A stretch of 64,000 nt of DNA, taken from assembly GCA_036365515.1 (NCBI GenBank), contig CM070876.1, positions 124,142,810-124,206,809 on the forward strand, in the 5' to 3' direction. The DNA comes from Torymus aiolomorphi (taxonomy: Eukaryota; Arthropoda; Insecta; Hymenoptera; Torymidae). A program made the translations under genes and the position numbers. Each line of letters begins with the position of its first letter. Position 1 is the first letter of the stretch. A model generated the notes under the pieces. The model ran no database searches, was not told where the DNA came from, and saw only the letters and a program-made list of their open reading frames with translations. Shown one piece after another: positions 10,860 through 51,161 of this stretch.

Positions 10860-13800
10860 AATCTATGAAGCTTCCAAGGTGGAACCCTCCGCGAAACTTC
10901 CAGTGCTGATCTTCTGGAAACTTTTATGGAAGCTTTCTAAAAGCTTCCCCGTAAATTTCAAGTTGCATTTTACCGCAACACTTTTGGAACCTTCTAGTCA
11001 GCCTTCCCTAAAACTTGCTATTAGCATCTTAGGAATGTTACTTTGGAACCCTTTTGAAAGCTTCCATTATATCCTAGAGCCAGCTATTTTTTATATTATG
11101 TTAGGAACCCTGCTTGTAATACTTCCTGGAGTCTTCCATCAAAATTTTCCTCAAGGTTGAATTGGAACTTCCATAGGAAGCTTCCTGGACTGTATTTCAA
11201 AAACTTCCCGCAATATTTACATGTAATTTAACTTTCGATCTTCCTAGAAGCTTTATGTTAGCTTCCAAGAGCCTTCCGCGAACCTTCCAGTGCCGATTTC
11301 AGTAATGGTTTATGTAAGCTTCGTGGAAATATTCTCGTAAGTATTGAGTAACATTTCACCGTAGCACTTTTGGAACCTTTCTGTTAGTCTTTCCTAACGC
11401 TTTCGGCATGAAGCTTCCTAAAAAGGTTACTCCTGAATCCACTCGGAAGCTTTCGGTATAACTTTAGACCAGTTGCTTTATTGTCAGGAACATTGCTTGA
11501 ATACTCCCTAGAATCTTCCATGAAAGCTTTCCTCAAGGTAGAATTGGAACTTCCATGGGAAGCTTCCTGGAATGTATTTCAAAAAGTTCCCGCAATCTTC
11601 ATATGTAATTCAACTTTTGTTATTCCTAGAACCTTTATGTTAGGTTTCAAGAGCCTTCTGCGAAGATTCCAGTGTTCATATCAGTAATCGTTTATGTAAG
11701 GTTCATGGAAACTTTCTCGTAAATTCTGAGTAACATTTCACCCTAGCACTTTTGGAACCTTTCTGTTAGTCTTTCCTAATGTTTTCTGGAAGTTTCCTAA
11801 AAAAATTACTTCGGAGTCCATTCGGAAGCTTCTGTTATAACTTTAGGCCAGTTGTATTATTATATTTCAGGAACCTTGCTTTAATACTTCCTAGAATCTT
11901 CCATGGAAGGTTTCATCAAAGTTTAATTGGAACATCCATAGAAAGCTTCCTGAAATATATTTCAAAAGCTTCCCGTAATATTTATACATATTTTAAGTTT
12001 TGTTCTTCCTAGAAGCTTTATGTTAGCTTCCAAGAGCCTTCAGCGAAGCTTCCTGTGCTCATTTCAGTAATCATTTATGTAAGCTGGATGGAAGCTTTCT
12101 CGTAAATTTTGAGTAACATTTCACCGTAGCACTTTTGGAAACTTTCTGTTAGACTTTCGTAACGTTTTCTGGAAGTTCCCTAAAAACGTTACTTCGAAAC
12201 CTAGCCGGAAGCTTCCGCTATAACTTTAGGCCAGTGCCTTTATTTATATGTCAGTAACCTTGCTTAAATACTTCCTAGAATCTTCCATGAAAGCTTTCCT
12301 TAAGTTTTAATTGGAACTTCCAGAGGAAGCTTCCTGGAATATAATTCAAAAGCTTCACGTAATCTTTGTATGTAATGTAACATTTATTCTTCCTAGAAGT
12401 TTTATGTTAGCTTCCAAGAGCCTTCCGCGAAGCTTCCAGTGCTCATTTCAATAATCGTTTATGTAAGCTTCGTGGAAGCTTACCTGTAAGTATTGAGTAG
12501 CATTTCATGGTAGCACTTCTGGAACCGTTCTGTTAGACTTTCGTAACGGTTTCTGAAAGCTTCCTAAAAAGGTTACTTCGGAATCTAGCCGGAAGCTTCA
12601 GTTATAACTTTAGGCCAGTGCCTTTATTTATATGTCAGGAACCCTGCTTGAATACTTCCTAGAATCTTCCACTAAAGCTTTCATCAAGTTTTAATTGGAA
12701 CTTCCAGAGGAAGCTTCCTGGAATATAATTCAAAAGCTTCACGTAATCTTTGTATGTAATTTAACTTTTAGTCTTCCTAGAAGTTTTATGTTAGCTTCCA
12801 AGAGCCTTCCGCGAAGCTTCCAGTGCTCATTTCAGTAATCGCTTATGTAAGCTTCGTGGAAGCTTACTCGTAAGTATTGAGTAACATTTCACGGTAGTAC
12901 TTCTGGAACCTTGCTGTTAGACTTTCCTAATGCTTTCTGGAAGCTCCCTAAAAAGGTTACTCCGGAATCTAGCCGGAAGCTTCCGTTATAACTTTAGACC
13001 AGTGGCTTTATTTATATGTCAGGAACCTTGCTTGAATACTTCCTAGAATTTTCCATGAAAGCTTTCCTCAAATTTTAATTGGAACGTCCAGAGGAACCTT
13101 CCTGGAATATATTTCAAAATATTTACGTAATCTTTATCTGTAATTTAACTTCTATTCTTCCTAGAAGCTTTATGTTAGCTTCTAAGAGCCTTCCGCGAAG
13201 CTTGCAGTGCTCATTTCAGTAATCGTTTATGTAAGGTTCATGGAAACTTTCTCGTAAATTTTTAGTAACATTTCACCGTAGCACTTTTGGAACCTTTCTG
13301 TTAGTCTTTCCTAACGTTTTTTGTAAGATTCCTAAAAAGGTTACTTCGAAATCTAGCCGGAAGCTTCCGTTATAACTTTAGGCCTGTGCCTTTATTTATA
13401 TGTCAGGAACCTTGCTTGAATACTTCCTAGAATCTTCCATGAAAGCTTTCGTTTTAATTGGAACTTCCAGAGGAAGCTTCCTGGAATATATTTCAAAAGC
13501 GTCACGTAATCTTTGTATGTAATTTAACTTTTATTCTTGCTAGAAGCTTTATGTTAGCTTCCAAGAGCCTTCCGCAAAGCTTCCAGTGCTCATTTCAGTA
13601 ATCGTTTATGTAAGCTTCGTGGAAGCTTACTCGTTAGTATTGAGTAACATTTCACGTTAGCACTTTTGGAACCTTTCTGTTAGACTTTCCTAACGCTTTC
13701 TGGAGGCTCCCTAAAAAGCTTACTCCGGAATCTAGCCGGAAGCTTCCGTTATAACTTTAGGCCAGTGGCTTTATTTATATGTCAGGAACCTGGCTTGAAT

Positions 13801-14560
13801 ACTTCCTAGAATTTTCCATGAAAGCTTTCCTCAAGTTTTAATTAGAACTTCCAGAGGAACCTTCCTGAAATAGATTTCAAAAGCTTCACGTAATCTTTAT
13901 ATGTAATTTAACTTTTATTCTTCCTAGAAGCTTTATGTTAGCTTCCAGTGCTCATTTCAGTAATCGTTTATGTAAGGTTCATGGAAGCTTACTCGTAAGT
14001 ATTGAGTAACATTTCCCCGTAGCACTTTTGGATCCTTTGTGTTAGACTTTCCTAACGCGTTCTGGAAGCTCCCTAAAAAGGTTACTCCGGAATCTAGCCG
14101 GAAGCTTTCGTTATAACTTTAGGCCAGTGGTTTTATTTATATGTCAGAAACCTTGCTTGAATGCATCCTAGAATCTTCTATGAAAGCTTTTCTCAAGGTT
14201 TAATTGGAACTTCCATAGGAAGCTTCCTGGAATGTATTTAAAAAGCTTCCCGTAATCTTTATATGTAATTTAACTTTTGTTCTTCCTAGAAGCTTTATGT
14301 TAGCTTCCAAGAGCCTTCCGCGAAAGCTTCCAGTACTCATTTTCGATAATCTTATATGTAAGCTTTTTGGAAGTTTCCGTGGAACTTCCATGTAATATTT
14401 CATAGTTAGGTATTTGAAACTTTTTCTGTTTCCTTCCTGGAATCTTTCTGGAAGCTTACTTAGAAATCTTCCAATGTAACCTTCCTGAAAGTTTCTGTTA
14501 GCTTCCTGGAAGGTTCCATTAACCTTCCACTGTAAGTTTCCTTGAACTTTCTTCCGGAAC
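10860..14560. repeat. Satellite array, about 383-bp unit, 8-9 copies
   Basis: The landmark GCTTGAATACTTCCTAGAAT or a close variant recurs near 11489, 11878, 12262, 12648, 13029, 13411, 13793 and 14154, giving spacings of 381-389 bp with one shorter step of about 361. Each unit is itself made of repeated GGAAGCTTCC- and TTCCTAGAA-like words. The outer units are more diverged than the central ones. Short frames inside are not genes. Confidence 0.9.
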
Positions 14561-17069: not shown

Positions 17070-17361
17070 TAAATTTTTTTATAAATATCAAGAATTTCTT
17101 CCCAAACTATATTTTCAATTTCTTATGAATTTTCTAAGTTGTTTTGTATATATATGTTATCTGGATTTCTACACCTTGATAAAGCAACATATAATTGACC
17201 GTGTGAGAATAATTGCCTTTTGATGTATAACCCTACATAATCAAAACTGTCTCTGAGATTTATTAATGGTCATGCAAAATACTAATGTTAATGGAAACTT
17301 TTTTCTATAAAGAATAAAAGGTAATGAAGAAGATTCTCCTGTATTTAATGTAATTCTAGGA
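17070..17361 (-). pseudogene. Helitron PIF1-like helicase, C-terminal end (distal piece)
   Basis: On minus, PRITLNTGESSSLPFILYRK leads to CMTINKSQ and, after a small frameshift, to FSHGQLYVALSRCRNPDNI. This is the conserved C-terminal end of Helitron PIF1-like helicases (motifs V and VI). Its N-terminal continuation is at 24109-25190: the two pieces meet at the PRIT codons, separated by the Penelope insertion. The helicase unwinds DNA during rolling-circle transposition. Confidence 0.85.
17348..17361. repeat. Left 14-bp target-site duplication of the Penelope insertion
   Basis: ATGTAATTCTAGGA here is repeated exactly at 24095-24108. Both copies lie within the helicase PRIT codons, so the two Helitron halves join at this word. 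Confidence 0.9.
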
Positions 17362-18620
17362 TTTGGTTGGTAAAGGCGCTTATGGTAGGATGTGAATCGT
17401 ATGTGTGTCTTGAATCCGATGGCCAATTGTCTACCAGGAAAGGTTTATAAAAATGAGCACCATTTATTCTTAACCGACGTTTCGGACACTTTTGTCATGT
17501 CCTTCTTGAGGTACTATATATTTAACACAAATCATTTACATAATAAATATATACAGTATGTTGAAGGTAAGATTTACATTTTTTCAAAAAAACCGTAGTT
17601 TTTACAATCAATTCCAATAAAAAATAATTTATATTACATATTTAATAAAACTAATCACTTAATTATTTATCACAATTCGCAAACTCTAAACAAGTTATGT
17701 ATAACAAGGTACACTTACATTACGTCAGGATGTAATGATAACGTGATACTGTCCGTTTCATCAATGCTTTTTCTTTACGGCAAACGTTCTATATATACTA
17801 ATATACTGTAATTGTGTGTATATTGTTTGTGTATACGAGTATATAAAACGATGTGAGACAGATAGGGATAGCGCTGAACGATTCGGAGCCGAGGCGAGTT
17901 GTCAGGAGAGCACGTCATAGTGGAAGTCATCCTAATGACACGATTCTCAAAACATACACGAATATTGTGATGGATATTATATGCTCATCCAACGTGCTCC
18001 CCTAATATACCGGTTCGACTTTACAAAGTTTATATACATAGTAAGAGTTATATTAAGCTAAAATTTCGCAGTTATTAATTAATATATTATATTCTTTCGC
18101 TAGTTTATTGATTTCAAATTGTTTATTTATATAATTTTTTTGTTGATGAATGAAGAATGCTTCTGAAAAAAGTCTTTTTCCGTTATTTATTTCTGTATCT
18201 AAGATTTTAATATTATCAAAATCTATTGTATGATTGTTATTTTCAATGTGCGCAAATAAGGAAGTTTTATCATCGTTGTCAAAATATTTTTTCTATGTTC
18301 TTTTATTCTTACATTTAATCGTCTACCTGTCTGTCACACATACGTTGCTTCGCAATTTTTACAATTGATTTTATACACCACATTGTTTTTATTACATTTT
18401 CCTTCTTTATCTTTCCCTAATACTATTACATTACTAGTTCATTTATGGTACTAAACACAACATTAATGTTAAGTTTTTTAAAAAAATTTTTGTAAAACAT
18501 TCTAACTCATTAACATACGGTAAACATATAATCCCATCGCAGATTCTTTGTTGTTTGGGGCTATTATCTGAAATTTGTAGCATTTTTAATCGTTTCTTTA
18601 TGTGGTGATCAACTAAAGTA
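17362..18620 (-). repeat. Inverted left arm: Penelope 3' end in opposite orientation
   Basis: This arm is the reverse complement of about 22870-24094: the end of the RT domain, the GIY-YIG region and the terminal repeat. It continues about 45 bp further at its outer end than the right copy (TAAAGGCGCTTATGG region). At about 18620 it joins head-on to a plus-strand terminal-repeat fragment (18621-18720) that leads into the main copy. Confidence 0.85.
17476..17510 (-). ncRNA. Penelope hammerhead-like motif, left arm (mutated)
   Basis: The minus strand reads CTCAAGA, a stem (GGACA..TGTCC), GAAAC and GTC. Compared with the right-arm copy, the core CTGAAGA has G changed to C at an essential position, so this copy should be inactive. 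Hammerhead motifs of minimal stem III are known from Penelope-like elements. Confidence 0.5.
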
Positions 18621-19200
18621 TCCAAACATTTATTTAAAACTTTCCTGGTAGACAATTGGCCATCGGATTCAAGACACACATACGATTCACATCATACCAT
18701 AAGCGCCTTTACCAATCAAATTCTACACAACGTTTGGCCGAAATTACACGTTGTTAAAGAAACACCATCGACCACCATGGAGTTTTCACCGAATCCGGAA
18801 CAACGAATGGAGATTCGCTTACGTATGTTGAACCAACACATGACACACAAAGAACCATAAAAAAATTTTTTAAAATACCGTCAAGATATTAATGTCAATT
18901 TAACTCTACATTTGATATTCAAAATCTTCGGTTTCAAAGTGAAAAAACAATTCCAGTATTCAACTAAAATGTTATACAAGGAAAAACAATCGAGAGAACA
19001 ATTTAAATTTTTAATTAAATGTAGATTTTTTAATATTGTTCTGAAACATTTACAATGCATTACAAAGAATCTAAAAAATAACTACATGTTCTGAAAAAAA
19101 TGCGTAACTAAACAAAACAAGTTGACGGAAAAAATCATGAATCAAGTTCTAAACATAAAAATTATAGATTTACACACAAAAATTGCATGGTTAAACAGAG
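18621..19200 (+). pseudogene. Penelope-like ORF, N-terminal part (interrupted)
   Basis: After a terminal-repeat fragment, frames from about 18780 include MEFSPNPEQRMEIRLR and, from 18912, SREQFKFLIKCRFFNIV with HLQCITKNLKNNYMF. A third frame ends HTKIAWLNREIIK at the insertion boundary 19212. Lysine-rich, helical sequence of this type is usual upstream of the Penelope RT domain. The frame resumes in phase at 21227 beyond the ribozyme array. Several stops and frame changes show decay that is independent of the insertion. Confidence 0.65.
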
Positions 19201-19212
19201 AAATTATAAAAA
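19201..19212. repeat. Left 12-bp TSD of the ribozyme-array insertion
   Basis: AAATTATAAAAA is repeated exactly at 21215-21226. Taking away the intervening 2002 bp plus one copy of the duplication leaves the Penelope frame in phase. Confidence 0.9.
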
Positions 19213-19350
19213 TGTAAGTAATGCTGCTAATGGGTAATACGGGCAAGTTTTTCGCGAGTGTCCTTTTTAATTAAAGGCCCAATGAAAAAAATTGTCAAAA
19301 TTACGAAATACAATAAGTTAATATCTTATTGTAGTCAAAGAAATCAATCG

Positions 19351-19417
19351 AAGTGTTTCGTCCAGGCTACTAGATTGGACTCATCAGTGATGATCTAGTA
19401 GCCGTCATCAGACACTT
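19351..19417 (-). ncRNA. Type III hammerhead ribozyme, copy 1
   Basis: Minus strand: AAGTGT pairs with ACACTT (stem III), C follows as the cleavage residue (GUC), TGATGA/TCATCA form stem I with loop CGGCTACTAGA, the CTGATGA core follows, GTCC/GGAC form stem II with loop AATCTAGTAGCCT, then GAAA. The two loops are complementary over 10 nt (GGCTACTAGA with TCTAGTAGCC). All catalytic bases are present. Confidence 0.93.
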
Positions 19418-19703
19418 GCCGCTGGGTGGTCACGGCCAAAGCTTTATAGACTGAGCCACCTTTTTCACTAGTGGAAAAGGAGGCTCCATCTATCCATGTA
19501 TAATTAACCCAAACACCGTATAATATAATATAAATTTATGAAGCTAATGCCCGATCAAGATTTCATGTAAGTAATGCTGCTAATGGGTAATACGGGCAAG
19601 TTTTTCGCGAGTGTCCTTTTTAATTAAAGGCCCAATGAAAAAAATTGTCAAAATTACGAAAAACAATAAGTTAATATCTTATTATAGTCAAAGAAATCAA
19701 TCG

Positions 19704-19770
19704 AAGTGTTTCGTCCAGGCTACTAGATTGAACTCATCAGTGATGATCTAGTAGTCGTCATCAGACACTT
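19704..19770 (-). ncRNA. Type III hammerhead ribozyme, copy 2
   Basis: Same fold as copy 1. Stem II is GTTC/GGAC, with one wobble pair in place of C-G, and loop 1 has G changed to A (CGACTACTAGA). Core bases are intact. Confidence 0.92.
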
Positions 19771-20056
19771 GCCGCTGGGTGGTCACGGCCAAAGCTTTAT
19801 AGACTGAGCCACCTTTTTCACTAGTGGAAAAGGAGGCTCCATCTATCGGTATATAATTAACCCAAACACCGTATAATATAATATAAATTTATGAAGCTAA
19901 TGCCCAATCAAGATTTCATGTAAGTAATGCTGCTAATGAGTAATACGGGCAAGTTTTTCGCGAGTGTCCTTTTTAATTAAAGGCCCAATGAAAAAAATTG
20001 TCAAAATTACGAAAAACAATAAGTTAATATCTTATTGTAGTCAAAGAAATCAATCG

Positions 20057-20123
20057 AAGTGTTTCATCCAGGCTACTAGATTGGACTCATCAGTGATGAT
20101 CTAGTAGCCGTTATCAGACACTT
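20057..20123 (-). ncRNA. Type III hammerhead ribozyme, copy 3
   Basis: Core intact. Stem II is GTCC/GGAT, so the closing pair is a G-U wobble, and the apical pair of stem I is lost (TGATAA). It is probably slower than copies 1, 5 and 6. Confidence 0.9.
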
Positions 20124-20408
20124 GCCGCTGGGTGGTCACGGCCAAAGCTTTATAGACTGAGCCACCTTTTTCACTAGTGGAAAAGGAGGCTCCATCTATC
20201 GGTGTATAATTAACCCAAACACCGTATAAGATAATATAAATTTATGAAGCTAATGCCCAATCAAGATTTCATGTAAGTAATGCTGCTAATGGGTAATACG
20301 CGCAAGTTTTTCGCTAGTGTCCTTTTTAATTAAAGGCCCAATGAAAAAAATTGTCAAAATTACGAAAAACAATAAGTTAATATCTTATTGTAGTCAAAGA
20401 AATCAATC

Positions 20409-20474
20409 GGTGTTTCGTCCAGGCTACTAGATTGGACTCATCAGTGATGATCTAGTAGCCGTCACCAGACACTT
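20409..20474 (-). ncRNA. Type III hammerhead ribozyme, copy 4 (stem III damaged)
   Basis: Core CTGATGA and GAAA are present, but a 2-bp loss turns the stem III 3' strand from CACTT into CACCG, shortening the helix. Stem I has a G-U pair. This is the innermost minus-strand copy. Confidence 0.85.
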
Positions 20475-20501
20475 GCCGCTGGGTGGTCACGGCCAAAGCT
20501 T

Positions 20502-20591
20502 TATATAAAGCTTTATACTTTATATAAAGCTTTATATAAAGCTATATACTTTATATACTTTGTATGAAGCTATATATAAAGCTTTAGATAA
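20502..20591. repeat. Central junction of the ribozyme array
   Basis: Imperfect repeats of AAGCTTTATATA and TATACTTTATATA fill the point where the minus- and plus-oriented units meet. The word grew from GGCCAAAGCTTTATAG of the unit, which suggests slippage or snap-back synthesis where two cDNAs joined. Confidence 0.7.
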
Positions 20592-20617
20592 AGCTTTGGC
20601 CGTGACCACCCAGCGGC

Positions 20618-20684
20618 AAGTGTCTGATGACGGCTACTAAATCATCACTGATGAGTCCAATCTAGTAGCCTGGACGAAACACTT
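20618..20684 (+). ncRNA. Type III hammerhead ribozyme, copy 5
   Basis: Plus-strand copy with all stems and core bases. Loop 1 has one change (CTACTAAA), breaking one of the loop-loop pairs. Confidence 0.92.
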
Positions 20685-20970
20685 CGATTGATTTCTTTAA
20701 CTACAATAAGATATTAACTCATTGTTTTTCGTAATTTTGACAATTTTTTTCATTGGGCCTTTAATTAAAAAGGACACTCGCGAAAAACTTGCCCGTATTA
20801 CCCATTAGCAGCATTACTTACATAAAATCTTGATCGGGCATTAGCTTCATAAATTTATATTATATTATACGGTGTTTGTGTTAATTATACACCGATAGAT
20901 GGAGCCTCCTTTTCCACGATTGGAAAAGGTGACTCAGTCTATAAAGCTTTGGCCGTGACCACCCAGCGGC

Positions 20971-21037
20971 AAGTGTCTGATGACGGCTACTAGATCATCA
21001 CTGATGAGTCCAATCTAGTAGCCTGGACGAAACACTT
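20971..21037 (+). ncRNA. Type III hammerhead ribozyme, copy 6
   Basis: Plus-strand copy identical in fold to copy 1 and consensus-like throughout, spaced exactly 353 bp from copy 5. Confidence 0.93.
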
Positions 21038-21142
21038 CGATTGATTTCTTTGACTATAATAAGATATTAACTTATTGTTTTTCGTAATTTTGACAATTTT
21101 TTTCATTGGGCCTTTAATTAAAAAGGACACTCGCGAAAAACA

Positions 21143-21214
21143 TGCCCGTATTACCCATTAGCAGCATTACTTACATGAAATCTTGATCGGGCATTAGCTT
21201 CATAAATTTATATT
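21143..21214 (+). repeat. Terminal tail module of the ribozyme element
   Basis: The tail starts TGCCCGTATTACCCATTAGC and ends GATCGGGCATTAGCTTCAT plus an AT stretch. TGCCCG and CGGGCA can pair, and CATTAGC is repeated about 36 nt apart. A closely related module ends the tRNA-SINE at 50397-50470 and, in shortened form, at 51111-51149. Confidence 0.8.
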
Positions 21215-21226
21215 AAATTATAAAAA

Positions 21227-22985
21227 GTAAAAAATCATTAGAGACGAGTGTAGAAAACAACACTATTGAATTATTTGCTGACTTTTATGCTACTAAACTG
21301 AACTTTATTATTGTTAAATTAAAAGAAAAACTACAACGTAAACTCGAAACCATATATTTCAGAAAATATGAGAAAGAAAGTGAAAAAGATAGATATAAGG
21401 AAGATGTGTGGAGGTTAATGTCCGAGACAATAACACACAGGTTATCGAACCAGCGAAAACTGACGATAGTTGGTGTGTGAATGTTTCGGGCATTGAACTT
21501 CCATCGTACGTTACTGATATATTAAAACTTGGAGAGAAATTCAATTTTAATGAAACATTCAACAACAAATTACTACTGCAATATATTAAGAATTTTGAAA
21601 CTTTTATTGAAAAACACAATAATAAAGCTGATATTCCTAAAATAAGAAGCTCTTTTCTCAACACCATAAAAATTTCATACAATAGAGAATTAGCAAATAA
21701 TTCATACGAAAAAACAAAAAGTTAAAAATAGACCCCAAAAAAACAAGAAAATTTCTAAAACAGAACTCAGATATTCTAATAACTAGAGCTGCTAAAGGGA
21801 ATGCTACAGTGATAATCAAAAAATCATGTTACGTAGAAAAGCCGATACACTATTTAACGATCAAAAATATTATGAAAAAATAAAATCAAATCCTTTATCA
21901 AGCCTAGAAAGGAAAACAAATGATATAGTGAAATGGCTCAATAAAATAAATTTTAGTGGTACTAAGAAACAACTACTCCCGGTTCTTCAAAAATTCAGTA
22001 TATCAAAAGCGTATGGTCTTATTAAAATACATAAAGCAGGTTTTCCAGTCAGACCCATAATATTCACAGTGAACTCTCCTACTTACTACGTTTCAAAGTT
22101 TTTTGCTCAATTCCTACAAAATAATTTAAAAACCCCGTCATCACATGTAGATAATAGTTTAAAACTAAAAGAAAAACTTAAAAAAATATCAAAATACCAC
22201 ATAATTATGAAATAGTGAGTTTCGATGTCGTAAGTCTTTTTACAAATGTCCCTGAATACCTAGTATATGAAGCGATAGAAAGAAGGTGGCATCAAATATA
22301 TAATAGAATAAATATGTCCTGTACCGAATTTCTTAAAGTAAGTAAATTCATCCTAAACAATGATTATTTTAAATTTAATGGCAATTTTTATAGACAGACA
22401 TTCGGATCCTCTATGGGAAATCCGTTAAGTCCTATACTACCTAACATAGTTATGGAAGATTTAGAAAACGCATGTATCAATAAACTTCAAGAAAAACCGC
22501 TATTTTATTACCGTTATGTGGATGATATTGTTCTTTGTATACCGAAAAATAATATACGCGATACATTACAAATTTTCAACTCTTATGACACAAACTTACA
22601 ATTCACTGTTGAACATTCCGAAAATAATAGCAATAGTTTTTTGGACATAAAAATTATAATAAACGATGAAAGCAATATAATAACTAATTGGTATCGAAAA
22701 CCTACCTTTTCAGGAAGATATCTCAATTTCAATTCGCATCACCCGACAAGCAACAAAATAGCTATTATATACTGTCTCCTCGATAGAGCAATAAAATTAT
22801 CGCACAATAGATTTCACAAAGAAAATATAGATTTTATCAAATATGTTTTAAAAAACAATAATTATCCACATAATTTAGTTGATCACCGCATAAAGAAACG
22901 CTTAAAAATGCTACAAATTTCAGATAATAGCCCCAAACAACAAAAAACCTACGATGGGATTATATGTTTACCATTTGTTAATTAG
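21227..22985 (+). pseudogene. Penelope-like reverse transcriptase domain
   Basis: Reading resumes with KSLETSVENNTIELFADFYA, then shifts frame near 21420, 21725, 21826 and 22215. RT motifs are clear: YGLIKIHKAGFPVRPI (fingers), SFDVVSLFTNVP (motif A Asp), FGSSMGNPLSPILPNI (motif B) and FYYRYVDDIVLCI (YVDD, motif C). A thumb region with NWYRKPTFSGRYLNFNSHHP follows, typical of Penelope polymerases, which are related to telomerase RT. The enzyme copies element RNA primed at a nick. This copy cannot make a full protein. Confidence 0.9.
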
Positions 22986-23441
22986 TTAGAATGTTTTACA
23001 AAAAATTTTTTTTAAAAACTTAACATTAATGTTGTGTTTAGTACCATAAATAAACTAAGTAATGTAATAGTATTAGGGAAAGATAAAGAAGAAAAATGTA
23101 ATAAAAACAATGTGGTGTATAAAATCAATTGTAAAAATTGCGAAGCAACGTATGTGGGACAGACAGGTAGACGATTAAATGTACGAATAAAAGAACATAG
23201 AAAAAAATATCTTGACAAAGATGATAAATCTTCCTTATTTGCGCACATTGAAAATAACAATCATACAATAGATTTTGATAATATTAAAATCTTAGATACA
23301 GAAATAAATAACGGAAAAAGACTTTTTTCAAGAGCATTCTTCATTCATCAACAAAAAAATTATATAAATAAACAATTTAAAATCAATAAACTAGCGAAAG
23401 AATATAATATATTAATTAATAACTGCGAAATGTTAGCTTAA
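22986..23441 (+). pseudogene. Penelope-like GIY-YIG endonuclease domain
   Basis: After a stop at 22983-22985 a frame from 23034 reads VYKINCKNCEATYVGQTGRR and then RIKEHRKKY, with an SSLFAHI...HTIDFDN block. VY...YVGQT with the following Arg and the INCKNC cysteines is the Penelope variant of GIY-YIG, the nuclease that nicks the target. It ends at TAA 23439-23441 and runs into the terminal repeat. Confidence 0.9.
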
Positions 23442-23986
23442 TATAACTCTTACTATGTACATAAACTTTGTAAAGTCGAACGGGTATATTAGGAGAGCAC
23501 GTTGGGTGAGCATATAATATCCATCACAATATTCGTGTATGTTTTGAGAATCGTGTCATTAGGATGACTTCCACTATGACGTGCTCTCCTGATAACTCGC
23601 CTCGGTTCCGAATCGTTCAGCGCTATCCCTACCTGTCTCACATCGTTTTATATACTCGTATACACAAACAATATACACACACAATTACAGTATATTAGTA
23701 TATATAGACCGTTTGCCGTAAAGAAAAAGCATTGACGAAACGGACAGTATCCCGTTATCATTACATCCCGACGTAATGTAAGTGTACCTTGTTATACATA
23801 ACTTGTTTAGAGTTTGCGAATTGTGATAAATAATTAAGTTATTAGTTTTATTAAATATGTAATATAAATTATTTATTATTGGAATTGATTGTAAAAACTA
23901 CGGTTTTTTTGAAAAAAATGTAAATCTTACGTTCAAAATACTGTATAAATTTTTTATGTAAATGATTTGTGTTAAATATATAGTAC

Positions 23987-24021
23987 CTGAAGAGGGACAC
24001 GACAAAAGTGTCCGAAACGTC
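23987..24021 (+). ncRNA. Penelope hammerhead-like motif, right terminal repeat
   Basis: CTGAAGA, a stem GGACAC/GTGTCC closed by GACAAAA, then GAAAC followed by GTC. The CUGANGA and GAAA cores with ACGU as a minimal palindromic stem III match the type I-like hammerheads described in Penelope-like elements, which tend to act as dimers. The flanks give only a weak stem I, so activity is uncertain. Confidence 0.55.
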
Positions 24022-24094
24022 GGTTAAGAATAAATGGTGCTCATTTATTTAAACATTTCCTGGTAGACAACTGGCCATCGGATTCAAGACACAC

Positions 24095-24108
24095 ATGTAA
24101 TTCTAGGA
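24095..24108. repeat. Right 14-bp TSD of the Penelope insertion
   Basis: ATGTAATTCTAGGA, identical to 17348-17361. Confidence 0.9.
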
Positions 24109-29440: not shown

Positions 29441-29681
29441 TGTAACGGCCTGCGCGTGTACGTGCGCGAGTGTGCATGTATCGGTGTGCGCGAACGAGAC
29501 ATGAGGCGAGTCTCAGCACACCGCGTCGGCACGCACTAATGCCCGAAATGTAAACATCTCTCAACCTTACGCGAAGGACAAGGCCGAGAGATGCTTGCGC
29601 GTGCCGACGAAGCAGCAGGCAGGGAGTATCGTTTCGGCCATTACCGCGAGAATAGCCCGCAGTGAAAGAGAGAGAGAAACC
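29441..29681 (+). repeat. 5' LTR of the gypsy element
   Basis: Starts TGTAACGGCCTGCGCG. It matches the 3' LTR with few substitutions up to GAGAGAGAAACC. After that the 3' copy has GACTGCCGAGAGTGAGA and this copy has AACGTGGGC, so the last bases of this LTR appear to be lost in the internal deletion. Confidence 0.9.
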
Positions 29682-29690
29682 AACGTGGGC
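29680..29690 (+). promoter_or_regulatory. Primer-binding site remnant
   Basis: CCAACGTGGGC fits the 3' part of the TGGCGCCCAACGTGGGGC class. The first bases are gone, probably by a deletion that used the shared CC. Pol coding DNA begins within about 10 bp. Confidence 0.55.
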
Positions 29691-32644
29691 GAGCCACCAC
29701 ATCGAAGTGGGGAGTGCACGCCCCGTAAAGCAGCGTTATTACCCGGTGTCCAAGAAGCTCGAAGAAGATATGCACCGCCAGGTGATCGAGATGCTCGAAT
29801 CAGGGGTAATCGAGCCCTCTACGAGCGCGTGGTCGAGCCCTGTCGTCATGATACGGAAAAGCAATGACAAGTACCGTTTCTGCATCGATTTCCGTAAATT
29901 GAACACGGTTTCGAAGGCAGATGCGTACCCGCTGCCGTACATGGACGCAATATTGCGCAAGTTGAAGAGCGCGAAGTACATCTCGACACTCGTCCTAAGC
30001 TCGGCGTATCACCAGATTCCACTGACGCCGGAATCAAAGGAGCTGACGGCATTCACAGTGCCCGGATTGGGCCTGTATCAGTTCACGAGGATGCCGTACG
30101 GCCTATCTCAGGCCGGAGCGACGTTTCAACGCCTTGTGGACAAAGTCATCGGCCCCGAGCTTGAGCCGTACGACTTCTCGTACCTCGATGATATCATCAT
30201 CGCGACAGAGACGTATGAGGAACACCTGAAATGGCTCGAGCACGTGCTAAAGCGCGTCAAAGAGGCCGGGTTGACGATCAACCGCGAGAAAAGTGTGTTT
30301 GGCAAGACTGAAGTCAAATACCTCGGTGTGCTCGTCAACCGGGACGGATTCCGGCCGGATCCTGATAAGATCGAGCCGATGATAAATTTTCCGGTACCAA
30401 AGAACTTGAAGCAACTACGCCGCTTCATGGGAATGGCATCTTGGTACCGAAAGTTCTTGAAAGACTTTGCCACGATAGCCGAACCGCTCACAGCGTTAAC
30501 GAAGAAGGATCGACGATATGAATGGGGCGATGCACAGCAAGAGGCTTTCGAAAAGATAAAAGCCTTGGTGTCCTCGGCTTCTGTCCTCGCCAGACCCTCA
30601 TTCGATGTTCAGTTCGTCGTACAGACAGACGCGAGCGACACCGGCATCGGCGCGGTGTTGTTGCAAGTAATCGAGGGACAGGAACAAGTCCTCGAATTCG
30701 CCAGCCGAACACTTTCGCCAGCGGAGCGCAATTACAGTGTCACGGAGCGCGAATGCCTAGCGGTGATCTGGGCGATTAAGAAGTTCCGCGCGTACAACGA
30801 AGGATATCACTTCTTGGTGGTAACAGACCATAGCAGCTTGCGATGGCTGCACAGCCTGCACAGCCCCACAGGAAGACTGGCGAGATGGGCTCTCGAGCTG
30901 CAGGGACACTCCTTCGATGTGGAACATCGAAAGGGCGCGCTGAACCACGTGCCCGACGCGCTTTCGCGCATGTACGAGGAAGAAGACGACCTCGAGGTGT
31001 ACGCGAGCACGTGGTCCGACGGTACCAAAGATGAGTGGTACCGAACCTGGCTGGACGAAGTGACACGCGACCCCTCAACCCATTCCAGGTGGAAAGTGGT
31101 AGGGGGTCGATTATTCTACTTTCCCGCAGATGAGATAGTAGAGGCGGCGGTCGCCGACGACGAGGCATGGAAACTCGTCGTGCCTCAGGAGCATCGTCGC
31201 GAAGTGCTTCGCGAATCACACGATGATCCGACCGCCGGGCACCAAGGTCAAGAAAAAACGTACGAGCGCGCAGCCAGGTTATATTACTGGCCAAAAATGT
31301 ACCATACAGTGAGGAAGTACGTGAAACATTGCCAAGTGTGCCAGCAGACAAAGGCGGAGCAAAGACCGCCAGCGGGTCTGATGGGACAGCGAGTTATCGA
31401 CGGGCCGTGGCAAGTAGTTGCGGGAGATATAACCGGCCCGTTCGTAAGAAGTAAACTCGGGTATGAGTATATCTTGGTGTTCCAAGACCTCTTTACTCGC
31501 TGGGTGGAGTGCGTGCCCATACGCAAAGCGAATGCGAAGACCATCTTGAAAGAGTTCAAGGAGAGAGTGATTCTTCGATTCGTCACTCCGGAGGTATTCT
31601 TGTCCGATAACGGCACAGAATTCAAGAATAAAGTCGTGGACGAATACCTCGCCGGCCGGCGTCCATCACTCGACTACCCCGCCGTATCACCCTCAGGCAA
31701 ACCCTGTAGAGAGGGTAAATCGAACGTTGAAGACTCGATTGGTCGCGTTCGTCGAGGAATCTCACGCCGAGTGGGATCAGAAGCTGCCGGAGTTGATGTT
31801 CTCGTTGAACAACTCCGTGCACGCTTCAACCGGCGTGAGCCCGGCCGCCCTCAATTACGGCAGGCAGCCGCTTCCTCCAGCTACAGCTCGCCGCAAGCAA
31901 GAGCGCGAGCCCCTTGAGCAACAAGAGCGCGAGGCGGTGAATACGTGGGCGGAGCGCCTGCATGATATGGACAGTCTGCGAAAAAGGGCTGCCGCACAAA
32001 ATGCCGACGAGCATCAGAGACAAGCGGCTTACTACAACGCTCGTCGGAGACAAGTATCCTACGGGGTAGGAGTCCTCGTCTTGAAAAGGAACAGAGTCCT
32101 TTCCTCGGCAGCGCAAGGGATATCGGCGAAGTTAGCGTCGAAGTACGCCGATCCGCTGAAGGTGACCGAGATAACAGGCTCCAATACGGTAAGAGTAAGA
32201 GACGAGAAGGATGCGAGCGAGGAGATCCTGCATGTTTCTCACCTCAAGCCTTACGACGAAGAAAGCAACGACGAAACGGGCGAAGAAGTCGACAACGTCG
32301 AGGATCCGCAACCGCCGAGGGAAGACGTAAGCGTCCCGGTGATGAGCGACCCACCGGAGGCCGGCGAAGCGCCGCCGAGCGATGCGCATCCCGTCGAAAA
32401 ACGTCCTCGGGGACGTCCGCGTAAAACGGTTCGCGTCGTGGTTCGCGCAGTTCCCGGTAAAACGTGCGCGACAACGAAGGTGAACCCCGGGACGGGAAAA
32501 CCCCGGGGTCGACCGAAAGGTTCCGCGAAGCGACAGGAACTGAGGTCAGACCTAGATGCCTCGCCGCGGTTGACTCGCGCACAGCGGCGTGCGAGAGCGT
32601 TAGACAAGAGCAGGAGTTCGGGAGTTGCTAGCGACTCCGTCTAA
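29691..32644 (+). pseudogene. pol: Gypsy Pol: RT, RNase H, integrase with AT-hook tail
   Basis: The first frame begins in RT (HIEVGSARPVKQRYYP) and shows FCIDFRKLN, FSYLDDIIIAT (YLDD), RNase H FVVQTDASDTGIGAVL and the RTLSPAERNYSVTERE block, the integrase HHCC domain (AGHQGQEKTY, HCQVCQQTK), VAGDITGPF (Asp) and FLSDNGTEF (Asp). A frame change in the GC run at 31651-31660 moves the Glu-bearing end of the core to the next frame, which runs to 32644. The tail has two AT-hooks (RPRGRPRKT and KPRGRPKGS, about 32400 and 32500) in place of a chromodomain. RT copies the RNA, integrase inserts the cDNA, and AT-hooks would favour AT-rich DNA. Protease is absent. Confidence 0.9.
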
Positions 32645-36885: not shown

Positions 36886-37320
36886 ATTATATATTGTCAG
36901 ATCGAGTTCGTTGCCCGTTATCTCGGAGCCCGGCCGAAGAAGGCATTATCTCGGAGTCAGGCCAAAGAAGGCCTTATCTGGTAGTCTGGCTGAAGGAGGC
37001 CTTATCTGGGAGTCCTCCCAAAGAAGGCGTTATCTCGCCGAAAATAGATAATATATAGGCGGTGCCGCCAATTGAAATCTGGGGCGAAAAAATTTGCATG
37101 TGAGATGACGCCTTCTTCAGCCGGACTCTGAGATAACGCCTTCTTCGGACGGACTCTGAGATAACGCCTTCTTCGAGCGAATTCTGAGATAACGCCTTCT
37201 TCGGGCGAATTCTGAGATAACGCCTTCTTGGGCCGGACTCCCAGATAACGCCTTCTTGGGCCGGACTCCCAGATAACGCCTTCTTGGGCCGGACTCAGAG
37301 ATAATGCCTTTCTATTCGGG
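36886..37320. repeat. Inverted minisatellite, about 30-bp units on both strands
   Basis: Left half: four or five units of AAGAAGGCNTTATCTCGGAG type (36900-37045). Right half: seven units in the opposite orientation (ACTCTGAGATAACGCCTTCT type, 37100-37310). A spacer of about 55 bp holds the palindrome GGCGGTGCCGCC. The two halves could pair into one long stem. Confidence 0.85.
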
Positions 37321-45109: not shown

Positions 45110-45900
45110 TAGGTCTCTGAGAGATCGTGCACAAAAAAAAATTTTCTTTGATAACCGTCTAAATGTCTTCCTAGGCATCCCATGAGTGGCCCTGAATTTT
45201 TTAGATTTTTGGTAAACCTACAAAAAGAACTGTGGCATCATACATATGGCCAGATCTAGCATTCCGTATGAAAAAAAAGAAATGTATGAAAGCGTATACA
45301 ACCGTACAAAACTGTATAAAAACGTATAAAACCGGATCTAAACATTGGTTTTTGGACAACTTTATACGTTTTAATACGGTTTCATAGGGTTTCTAACATT
45401 TTCATACAGTTTTCTACGATTTGCAACGATTTTATATAATTTCATACGGGTTTTTACATTTTACAGAATTTATAAAACGTAAAGAACGTAAAAATATAAT
45501 TAAGTTTTTATAAACATTAAAACATAATTTATTTATTTATTTTTCTATTTATTTTTTTTTATTTTGTAGGAAAATGTATTAAACTGTATAAAAATGTATA
45601 AAACCGTATAGAAATGTAATCAATTTGAAAAAAATCTACGGAAAAATACAGAAATATACATTTTTATACGGTTTCCTATGATTTGTTACATTAAGCTTTT
45701 TACAAACTTGACATGGAAGAATTTCTGAATTGTAAGACAATGTCTGAAAATGTATTAAACTATATAAAAATATATAAAACCGTATAAAATATGTCCAAAA
45801 ACCAATAGAAAGGTTCATTTTTATACGTTTTTATACGTTTTCCTATGGTTTCATACATTTATTATTTCCATACGGGATTTTTAGCTTTTTTGCCTATTTT
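45110..45900. repeat. Low-complexity GTATAAAACC / TTTTATACGG tract
   Basis: AAACCGTATAAAA-type words and their complement TTTTATACGGTTT alternate in blocks (45270-45340, 45360-45460, 45580-45660, 45740-45850), so the tract is both tandem and inverted. No gene. Confidence 0.7.
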
Positions 45901-50384: not shown

Positions 50385-50396
50385 AAAACTAAATTA
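50385..50396. repeat. Left 12-bp TSD of the inverted SINE pair
   Basis: AAAACTAAATTA, exactly repeated at 51150-51161. Confidence 0.88.
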
Positions 50397-50699
50397 ATTT
50401 ATCAATTGAAGCTAATGCCCGAATATTTTTATGTTAATTAATAAATGAAGCTAATGGCTATTACGGGCAATCGATAAAGGATAAGGAAGGTGCCTAACTT
50501 ATCAATCATCGATTTTATTCTTTTTACATGTGTATACTTACACATCTCTAATTATTCTAAGCTATTAGGGTAAAGCAGTCAAGGATATTAATGCACAATT
50601 ATTTTAATAATTTTAAAGTGCCGTCAAGAATTTTTAAAGGATGAGGAAAGGAAAGGTAAACGTATAGCATGAAAAAATGAGAACGAAAGAATAACGGCC

Positions 50700-50759
50700 C
50701 AGGTCGGGATCGAACCGACAACCTTCTGCATACCGGGCAGCTACGCTACCATTTGCGGA
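50700..50759 (-). ncRNA. tRNA-like SINE head, left copy
   Basis: Minus strand: CGCAAATGGTAGCG (A-box region), anticodon-like arm, GTCGGTTCGATCCCGAC (B box and T arm) and CTGGGCC. The 5' acceptor strand is missing at the inner end. Confidence 0.75.
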
Positions 50760-50811
50760 AATAAAAAATTGAGAACGATTAAGAACCGGTTAGGGTCCTG
50801 ATAGAATCGTC

Positions 50812-50883
50812 ATCCCAGTGGCGCAAATGGTAGCGTATCTGCCCGGTATGCAGAAGGTTGTCGGTTCGATCCCGACCTGGGCC
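50812..50883 (+). ncRNA. tRNA-like SINE head, right copy
   Basis: CCCAG/CTGGG acceptor pairs, D arm TGGCGCAAATGGTAGCG, anticodon stem TCTGC/GCAGA with loop CCGGTAT (GGT, Thr-like, if taken literally), T arm GTCGG TTCGATC CCGAC. A T7 run at 50888-50894 could terminate Pol III early. Confidence 0.8.
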
Positions 50884-51149
50884 GTTATTTTTTTCGTTCT
50901 CATTTTTTCATCCTATACGTTTATCTTTCCTTTCCTCATCCTTTAAAAATTCTTGACTACACTTTAAAATTATTAAAATAATTGTGCATTAATATCCTTG
51001 ACTGCTTTACTCTAATAGCTTAGAATAATTAGAGATGTGTAAGTATACACATGTAAAAAGAATAAAATCGATGATTGATAAGTTAGGCACCTTCCTTATC
51101 CTTTATCGATTGCCCGTAATAGCCATTAGCTTCATTTATTAATTAACAA

Positions 51150-51161
51150 AAAACTAAATTA
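51150..51161. repeat. Right 12-bp TSD of the inverted SINE pair
   Basis: AAAACTAAATTA, identical to 50385-50396. Confidence 0.88.

Follow-up and report, generated by a model that had tools for sequence, protein, structure and literature searches.

The 64,000-nucleotide stretch of the Torymus aiolomorphi genome analyzed here (assembly GCA_036365515.1, contig CM070876.1, positions 124,142,810 to 124,206,809 of the forward strand; hereafter, the window) carries at positions 19213 to 21214 an element built of 353-bp units. We consider this unit likely to be a non-autonomous retrozyme that combines a predicted type III hammerhead ribozyme with a Penelope-like 3' stem-loop and that has spread as a 353-nt RNA circle copied by a Penelope reverse transcriptase (RT). 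What moves retrozymes in animals has been an open question; the insertions described below carry the signature of Penelope integration together with a structurally compensated Penelope end, and the signature was seen in two otherwise unrelated passengers, the 353-bp hammerhead unit and a 474-bp unit bearing a tRNA. If this reading is true, animal ribozyme circles would have an identified partner responsible for their movement.

In the preliminary description of this DNA, made from the letters alone, the element had been taken for one array of six units. It consists instead of two outward-pointing arms, one with four minus-strand and one with two plus-strand hammerheads, set head to head around an AT-rich filler and forming an inverted repeat (635 nt, 97%). 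The left arm (19213 to 20505, minus strand) contains 3.67 units of 353 bp and has its outer end at unit position 198 (the short start site), while the right arm (20588 to 21214, plus strand) contains 1.8 units and has its outer end at unit position 237 (the long start site, or tail); where the two arms meet head to head, they break off at unit positions 316/317, on either side of the 82-bp, palindromic filler (20506 to 20587). Both start sites lie inside the Penelope-like 3' stem-loop module of the unit (20788 to 20863, plus strand), which has a 6-bp stem (TGCCCG/CGGGCA), CCATTAGC in the loop and CATTAGC past the stem. The right arm carries this module at its long outer end (21141 to 21214, plus strand), and the left arm carries the first half of it at its short outer end (19213 to 19249, minus strand). 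The GC content of the unit is 37%. No open frame of at least 120 codons was present within 19213 to 21214, so that neither an RT nor a GIY-YIG domain is encoded and the element is not itself a member of the Penelope group. A 12-bp target site duplication (TSD), AAATTATAAAAA, flanks the element on the left (19201 to 19212) and on the right (21215 to 21226), as had been claimed. The accompanying claim of an exactly interrupted Penelope reading frame held in part: once joined, the flanks do give a continuous open frame of 123 codons, and the insertion point seems to lie in the 5' portion of a degraded Penelope copy, but the frame itself received no Penelope assignment from searches.

We then turned to copies elsewhere in the 1.08-Gb assembly of the same species, in which the 353-bp unit gave 246 scored matches (442 first-look candidates, 39 of them scored). 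The 38 fetched loci, which were the best-matching copies among the matches listed, made up a sample of 39 together with the window. TSDs of at least 11 bp (in fact 12 to 16 bp, with a mode of 13) were found at 22 of the 39 loci versus 1 of 233 swapped-flank controls; an earlier control count of 3 of 218 still included the duplicated pair L028/L029. The further 353-bp multimers with flanking TSDs for which the preliminary description had proposed to search do therefore exist. Twenty of the 22 TSD-bearing loci (19 of them independent) were head to head, and two, L017 and L043, had a single orientation. In every one of these 20 head-to-head loci one outer end lay at unit positions 195 to 203 and the other at 231 to 240 (means of 198.2 and 236.2; offset of 38.0 nt, standard deviation of 3.0 nt), end positions being read with the entire TSD match treated as outside the element. 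The chance of all 19 independent loci being mixed in this way is ~2e-6, assuming independent and even choice of ends. L041 and L019 had two short ends, and both were without a TSD. In most loci the arms were arranged minus then plus, with inner junctions that varied by locus and were mostly overlaps of 1 to 9 or gaps of 0 to 4 bases, the 82-bp filler of the window being the exception. The greedy unit map used for the junctions undercounts the units of L015 and lists its junction repeatedly. Two start sites 38 nt apart, a TSD, head-to-head arms and variable inner junctions, features of a Penelope insertion, are all present. Pattern scans of a genome-contig and a viral-contig collection gave 0 matches each.

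That the unit is nothing but fixed satellite DNA with a decayed hammerhead, spread by recombination, is hardly credible in view of these data. The 353-bp repeats are indeed in tandem, one arm comprising 20 full units, but the excess of TSDs over controls, the discrete ends and the inner junctions that differ between loci all speak against it, the TSDs in particular against recombination as the main mode of spread; single arrays may have expanded locally.

A blast search with the 353-bp unit against the rest of the window returned a match at 50407 to 50470 (66 bp, 75.8%, E = 1.7e-6). It falls at the end of a head-to-head copy of a non-autonomous 474-bp unit (50397 to 51149) bearing a tRNA-Thr-like sequence and flanked by a 12-bp TSD, AAAACTAAATTA (50385 to 50396 and 51150 to 51161), and the module around the outer ends is the only blast similarity between the 353-bp and the 474-bp units. 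The end motif of the tRNA unit occurred 447 times in the genome (control, 0), often at a spacing of ~474 bp and as minus then plus among the 100 places listed of the 447. The sample for this family comprised 20 fetched loci (L067 to L086), drawn from the first 100 of the 447 places and all on one contig, together with the window copy. TSDs of at least 11 bp (12 to 14 bp) were found at 12 of these 21 loci versus 1 of 126 controls; the window copy was scored as a miss (TSD of 6, with a stray mapped segment), although direct reading gives its 12-bp TSD. All 12 TSD-bearing loci were head to head with one short (30 to 38) and one long (70 to 77) end, at an offset of 37.8 nt (standard deviation of 2.7 nt). 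Rfam searches of three loci of this family found the tRNA and no ribozyme. The 474-bp unit also contains a 9-bp hairpin followed by G7T5, and T7 after the tRNA. At one place (G000:C1:154299997-154301596) a hammerhead retrozyme, L021, and the end motif of the tRNA unit lie within ~1 kb of each other.

Head-to-head insertions with TSDs are also produced by twin priming of long interspersed nuclear elements (LINEs), and this is what an insertion of LINE type with no role for Penelope would have in its favor. We regard such an origin as quite improbable: two fixed ends 38 nt apart, one per side, at 20/20 hammerhead and 12/12 tRNA loci are the signature of a Penelope tail, no A-tail was seen at the element ends read, and the module is related to Penelope ends.

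The last of these points comes from a comparison with the Penelope copies of the same genome. In the Penelope family of the window, 7 of 10 copies (the window's own included) hold the end motif within the stretch given. By eye, the motif copies of L089, L093 (minus strand) and L095 run through the tail and the others stop after the first half, L093 having one long and one short Penelope end. Two further Penelope families, represented by one copy each (L097 and L098, with RTs 72% and 68% identical), have 3' ends in which TGGTAGA precedes GGCCATTAGC or GGCCATAAGC and TCTACCA is continued by TTAGC or TTTGC. When six modules were aligned, the stem was paired in 36/36 cells, slid structures pairing at most 58%, and at three stem pairs both bases differed between Penelope (TGGTAG/CTACCA) and the passengers (TGCCCG/CGGGCA). 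Because both passengers share one stem, this compensated change was probably a single event. In shuffle tests of the module stem, three measures reached 1/500, and upon folding both passengers showed the stem. A covariance model built from four Penelope ends only (R1), the E-values of which are rough, recovered the 3' module of the window's tRNA unit (50395 to 50471, minus strand) at an E-value of 1.3e-7 and the hammerhead-unit modules of the window at 0.0058 and 0.021 at best; among 18 of the 58 passenger loci, tRNA-unit modules mostly scored between 1e-7 and 2e-6. The end of Penelope family B matched the module of the tRNA unit at an E-value of 2.6e-7 and that of the hammerhead unit at 7e-4. 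The comparisons suggest a 3' stem-loop held in common with the genome's autonomous Penelopes, clearly for the tRNA unit and weakly for the hammerhead unit taken alone. For Penelope RT the genome gave 14,716 first-look candidate places (144 scored); identity separates them into three families or more, and a dozen or more minus-then-plus neighbors were present among the places listed.

We next asked from what template the units of one insertion were copied. In 20 arms with at least two full units, full units within an arm showed a mean of 6.08 differences, compared with 9.48 (standard deviation of 0.38) upon permutation (0 of 2000 lower). With all segments included, divergence in the hammerhead family was 0.0186 within the same arm, 0.0176 across the arms of a locus and 0.0245 between different loci; in the tRNA family the corresponding values were 0.0205, 0.0218 and 0.0295. 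Cross-arm divergence was below that to other loci at 20 of 29 hammerhead and 14 of 18 tRNA loci. L029, the TSD of which is identical to that of L028, was left out of both the arm permutation and the segment comparison, and L040, which has the same inner junction as its neighbor L041 and is probably part of one interrupted insertion, was left out of the latter. Different templates for the two arms were considered and rejected (full units only, cross-arm value of 9.00 versus 8.96 at five loci; with all segments of at least 60 bp included, the two arms agree). In the longest insertion, L015 (~20 units), the variant 326C was present in 22/22 segments and was found elsewhere only in L037. Among 115 full units, length changes recurred only within a T run. 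In 169 of 174 cases the predicted cleavage junction kept its exact spacing; the remaining five had deletions of 1 to 2 nt next to it, and none of the 174 had an insertion at the junction. Judged by these variants, the units of one insertion appear to trace to one template copied for up to 20 laps. One template, many laps and no scar are as expected of a ligated circle, and the animal retrozyme-like element spreading through circular RNA that had been proposed is supported by these template data and by the dispersed TSD-bearing insertions, the circle itself being predicted.

The same products could have arisen by a Penelope-driven insertion for which a genomic array supplied the template as a long, linear and multimeric RNA, the ribozyme being inactive or blocked. 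Penelopes are transcribed from tandem repeats, and the purified Penelope enzyme PAc used unprocessed RNA in vitro (PMC11167929). This explanation keeps some weight because the tRNA family forms the same multimers and no ribozyme was found at its three loci searched. We nevertheless think it rather unlikely, since a copied genomic array should pass on the private differences of its units, whereas the units of an insertion tend to share the variants of one template, as with 326C throughout L015; a very young source array would give the same pattern of shared variants.

All six hammerhead copies in the window element keep the type III succession of helices and core bases, i.e., stem III (AAGUGU/ACACUU), GUC (with C17), stem I (UGAUGA/UCAUCA), CUGAUGA, stem II (GUCC/GGAC), GAAA and the closing strand of stem III. 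As the preliminary description had proposed, we scored them with the Rfam model Hammerhead_3 (RF00008), which matched all six: copies 1 (19350 to 19418, 39.4 bits), 2 (19703 to 19771, 35.1 bits), 3 (20056 to 20124, 30.7 bits, with one stem I mismatch) and 4 (20407 to 20475, 29.8 bits, with a 2-nt deletion that damages stem III) on the minus strand and copies 5 (20617 to 20685) and 6 (20970 to 21038), each with 39.4 bits, on the plus strand. E-values were 1.8e-6 to 9e-4 for the 2,251 bases searched and 5e-5 to 0.026 for the whole window, and the matches include long insertions in loops I and II, which are 11 and 13 nt long. The earlier account of six type III hammerheads in canonical order spaced at 353 bp (351 bp once), one of them damaged (placed at 20409, our copy 4), was accurate. 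It had also read the unchanged core as a sign of selection for self-cleavage. The core is indeed identical in all six window copies, but selection on it within the array is not supported: in the 39 loci, with 115 full units, the core varied by 0.8%, not significantly less than the unit mean of 1.4% (P = 0.17), and all 12 core bases were kept in 107 of 117 segments versus 84% expected at the background rate. Rfam miRNA matches around 20467 to 20625 were set aside, as they are located on the inverted-repeat junction.

Loops I and II (GGCUACUAGA and UCUAGUAGCC) are complementary over 10 to 11 nt, with a loop duplex of -17.3 kcal/mol, and at its energy minimum (-23.3 kcal/mol) the hammerhead segment has the two loops paired, as do the three sense circles folded. 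The two loops are predicted to be able either to kiss in the active form or to pair as a long hairpin that engulfs the core. Because the lowest-energy fold pairs the loops, compared with -11.0 kcal/mol for the nested hammerhead fold, loop complementarity may act as a switch, and the loop-loop hairpin would then protect the finished circle.

From these sequences we infer the circle, its self-cleavage, the binding of Penelope protein and the priming and joining steps as follows. The transcript would self-cleave after ...AAGUGUC and the cut RNA would be ligated into a 353-nt circle, which a Penelope RT/GIY-YIG protein would bind through the 3' module. The circle would template both 3' ends of a staggered target cut, with starts near unit positions 198 and 236, and would be copied by the RT for several laps from both cut strands, after which the two cDNAs would be linked head to head, in many cases at short overlaps. 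A wider proposal, for which we see about equal chances of being right or wrong, is that the Penelopes of this genome serve a guild of unrelated small RNAs (the 353-nt hammerhead circle and the 474-nt tRNA RNA, which has no known ribozyme) that need just the Penelope 3' stem-loop, both strands priming on the same small circle, one at each of the start sites 38 nt apart, and yielding cDNA of up to ~20 laps that is joined head to head. If so, a second route to a template that is circular or multimeric would have to exist for the tRNA family, and each insertion would be a record of the Penelope reaction in vivo. Dozens of natural insertions would document an integration, otherwise known from one purified enzyme, in which both strands are primed, two start sites are used and junctions often form at short overlaps.

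Several observations weigh against retrozyme spread by Penelope. TSDs of at least 11 bp were absent at 17 of 39 hammerhead and 9 of 21 tRNA loci, and the arms were no closer to each other than to other loci in 9 of 29 and 4 of 18 cases, respectively. All six hammerheads of the window missed the Rfam gathering score of 48.5 bits (best, 39.4), and their nested fold is, as given above, less stable than the loop-loop hairpin; the tRNA family builds the same multimers with no recognized ribozyme at three loci. As to the module, two of the five shuffle measures were not significant (112/500 and 300/500), and the stem had been picked on the same sequences on which it was later tested. The lowest-energy fold showed it in only three of six Penelope ends (the window, L089 and L097, not L093, L095 and L098). 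With the R1 model, the remaining hammerhead-unit modules of the window scored at E-values of 0.27, 0.91, 1.4 and 2.1, non-module matches starting at 1.4 (position 50733) and 1.5 (position 45193), and hammerhead modules scored at 0.018 to 0.62 among 10 of the 38 hammerhead loci. The Penelope link leans in part on the stronger tRNA module, and no Penelope with a TGCCCG stem was found among the few copies of three families. In vitro, PAc did not need hammerhead cleavage, and its start sites did not differ by strand (PMC11167929), while each insertion here uses one of each; the TSDs of 12 to 16 bp compare with 8 to 10 bp, where present, in the Penelopes of Adineta (PMC3846280).

Other properties do agree with known Penelope-like elements. 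Purified PAc acts on both target strands, cutting and extending each; it favors AT-rich DNA and starts inside an AC-rich stem-loop at two internal sites that bound a 30- to 40-bp tail (PMC11167929), which matches the two start sites, 38-nt offset, stem-loop and priming from both sides deduced here. In Adineta, insertions have been described that carry direct and inverted pseudo-long terminal repeats (pLTRs), with palindromes where copies meet head to head and, optionally, a tail of 31 bp (PMC3846280). Taken together, head-to-head arms, junctions with palindromes or microhomology, a TSD, a 30- to 40-bp tail and a 3' stem-loop are common to these elements and both passengers (PMC3846280, PMC11167929). 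Penelope-like elements differ in that they encode protein and carry minimal type I hammerheads, whereas the 353-bp unit encodes none and has a type III hammerhead.

Among retrozymes, the closest comparison is with those of metazoans that lack long terminal repeats (LTRs) (Cervera and de la Pena 2020, PMC7229834). These have type I hammerheads, tandem units of 150 to 450 bp, low GC content, TSDs of more than 4 bp when present and circles of ~170 to 400 nt, and Penelope is named there as their strong candidate partner on the grounds that the two share hammerheads, occur in tandem copies and co-exist. The 353-bp unit resembles them in tandem size, low GC content, dispersed copies and TSDs longer than 4 bp; it differs in its type III hammerhead with complementary loops and in its insertion footprints, the Penelope link being there, in the text available, a proposal without such footprints. 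Type III hammerheads with interacting loops have been described in hepatitis delta virus (HDV)-like RNAs, termites and dipterans, and the structure search reported there found none in hymenopterans and hemipterans, as far as the available part of the article goes (PMC7936874). Those hammerheads share with ours the type, the long pairable loops and the occurrence in insect genomes; those of termites are isolated genomic motifs with other stem I and loop lengths. Our findings add a type III, loop-complementary hammerhead retrozyme to Hymenoptera. In the openly licensed literature, judged by title and abstract opening, we found no report on a Penelope-moved type III retrozyme, a tRNA multimer of this kind or a hymenopteran type III retrozyme.

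The likeness to plant retrozymes drawn in the preliminary description did not extend to insertion. Plant LTR retrozymes also have type III hammerheads, and a Gypsy-type polyprotein piece is present in the window; movement of a plant-type LTR retrozyme by Gypsy is, however, scarcely conceivable here. The plant elements have LTRs, a primer-binding site, a polypurine tract and TSDs of 4 bp (PMC4918200), versus 12 to 16 bp at our loci, and the head-to-head arms and the module point to Penelope. Circular RNA is known for the plant elements, compared with the predicted circle here.

The locus that hosts the window element is a degraded Penelope (17362 to 24094, plus strand) that is itself head to head, its arms being 95.8% identical (17401 to 18621 against 24096 to 22870) and flanked by a 14-bp TSD match, ATGTAATTCTAGGA (17348 to 17361 and 24095 to 24108). 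It contains an RT piece (22182 to 22985, profile match), a GIY-YIG piece (23016 to 23441, profile match just under the cutoff) and a complete 3' module with the stem TGGTAG/CTACCA at its long end (17364 to 17438, minus strand). Like the passengers, it combines head-to-head arms and a TSD match, here of 14 bp, with a long end confined to one of its two sides. Pfam returned 0 families for the first Penelope piece. The RT has 1,389 relatives, and those named among the 120 listed are from ants and a sawfly. An extra end module at 18644 to 18718 (E = 9e-16, Penelope-only covariance model) indicates a further Penelope end piece in the locus.

Elsewhere in the window, a 384-bp tandem repeat of 8.6 copies occupies 11090 to 14373 and gave no hammerhead match with Rfam. 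The Gypsy-type polyprotein piece (RT, RNase H and integrase), which has a long open frame, lies at 29656 to 31917, and two adjoining arrays of a 28-bp unit, in opposite orientations and with 4.3 and 7.5 copies, are found at 36918 to 37310.

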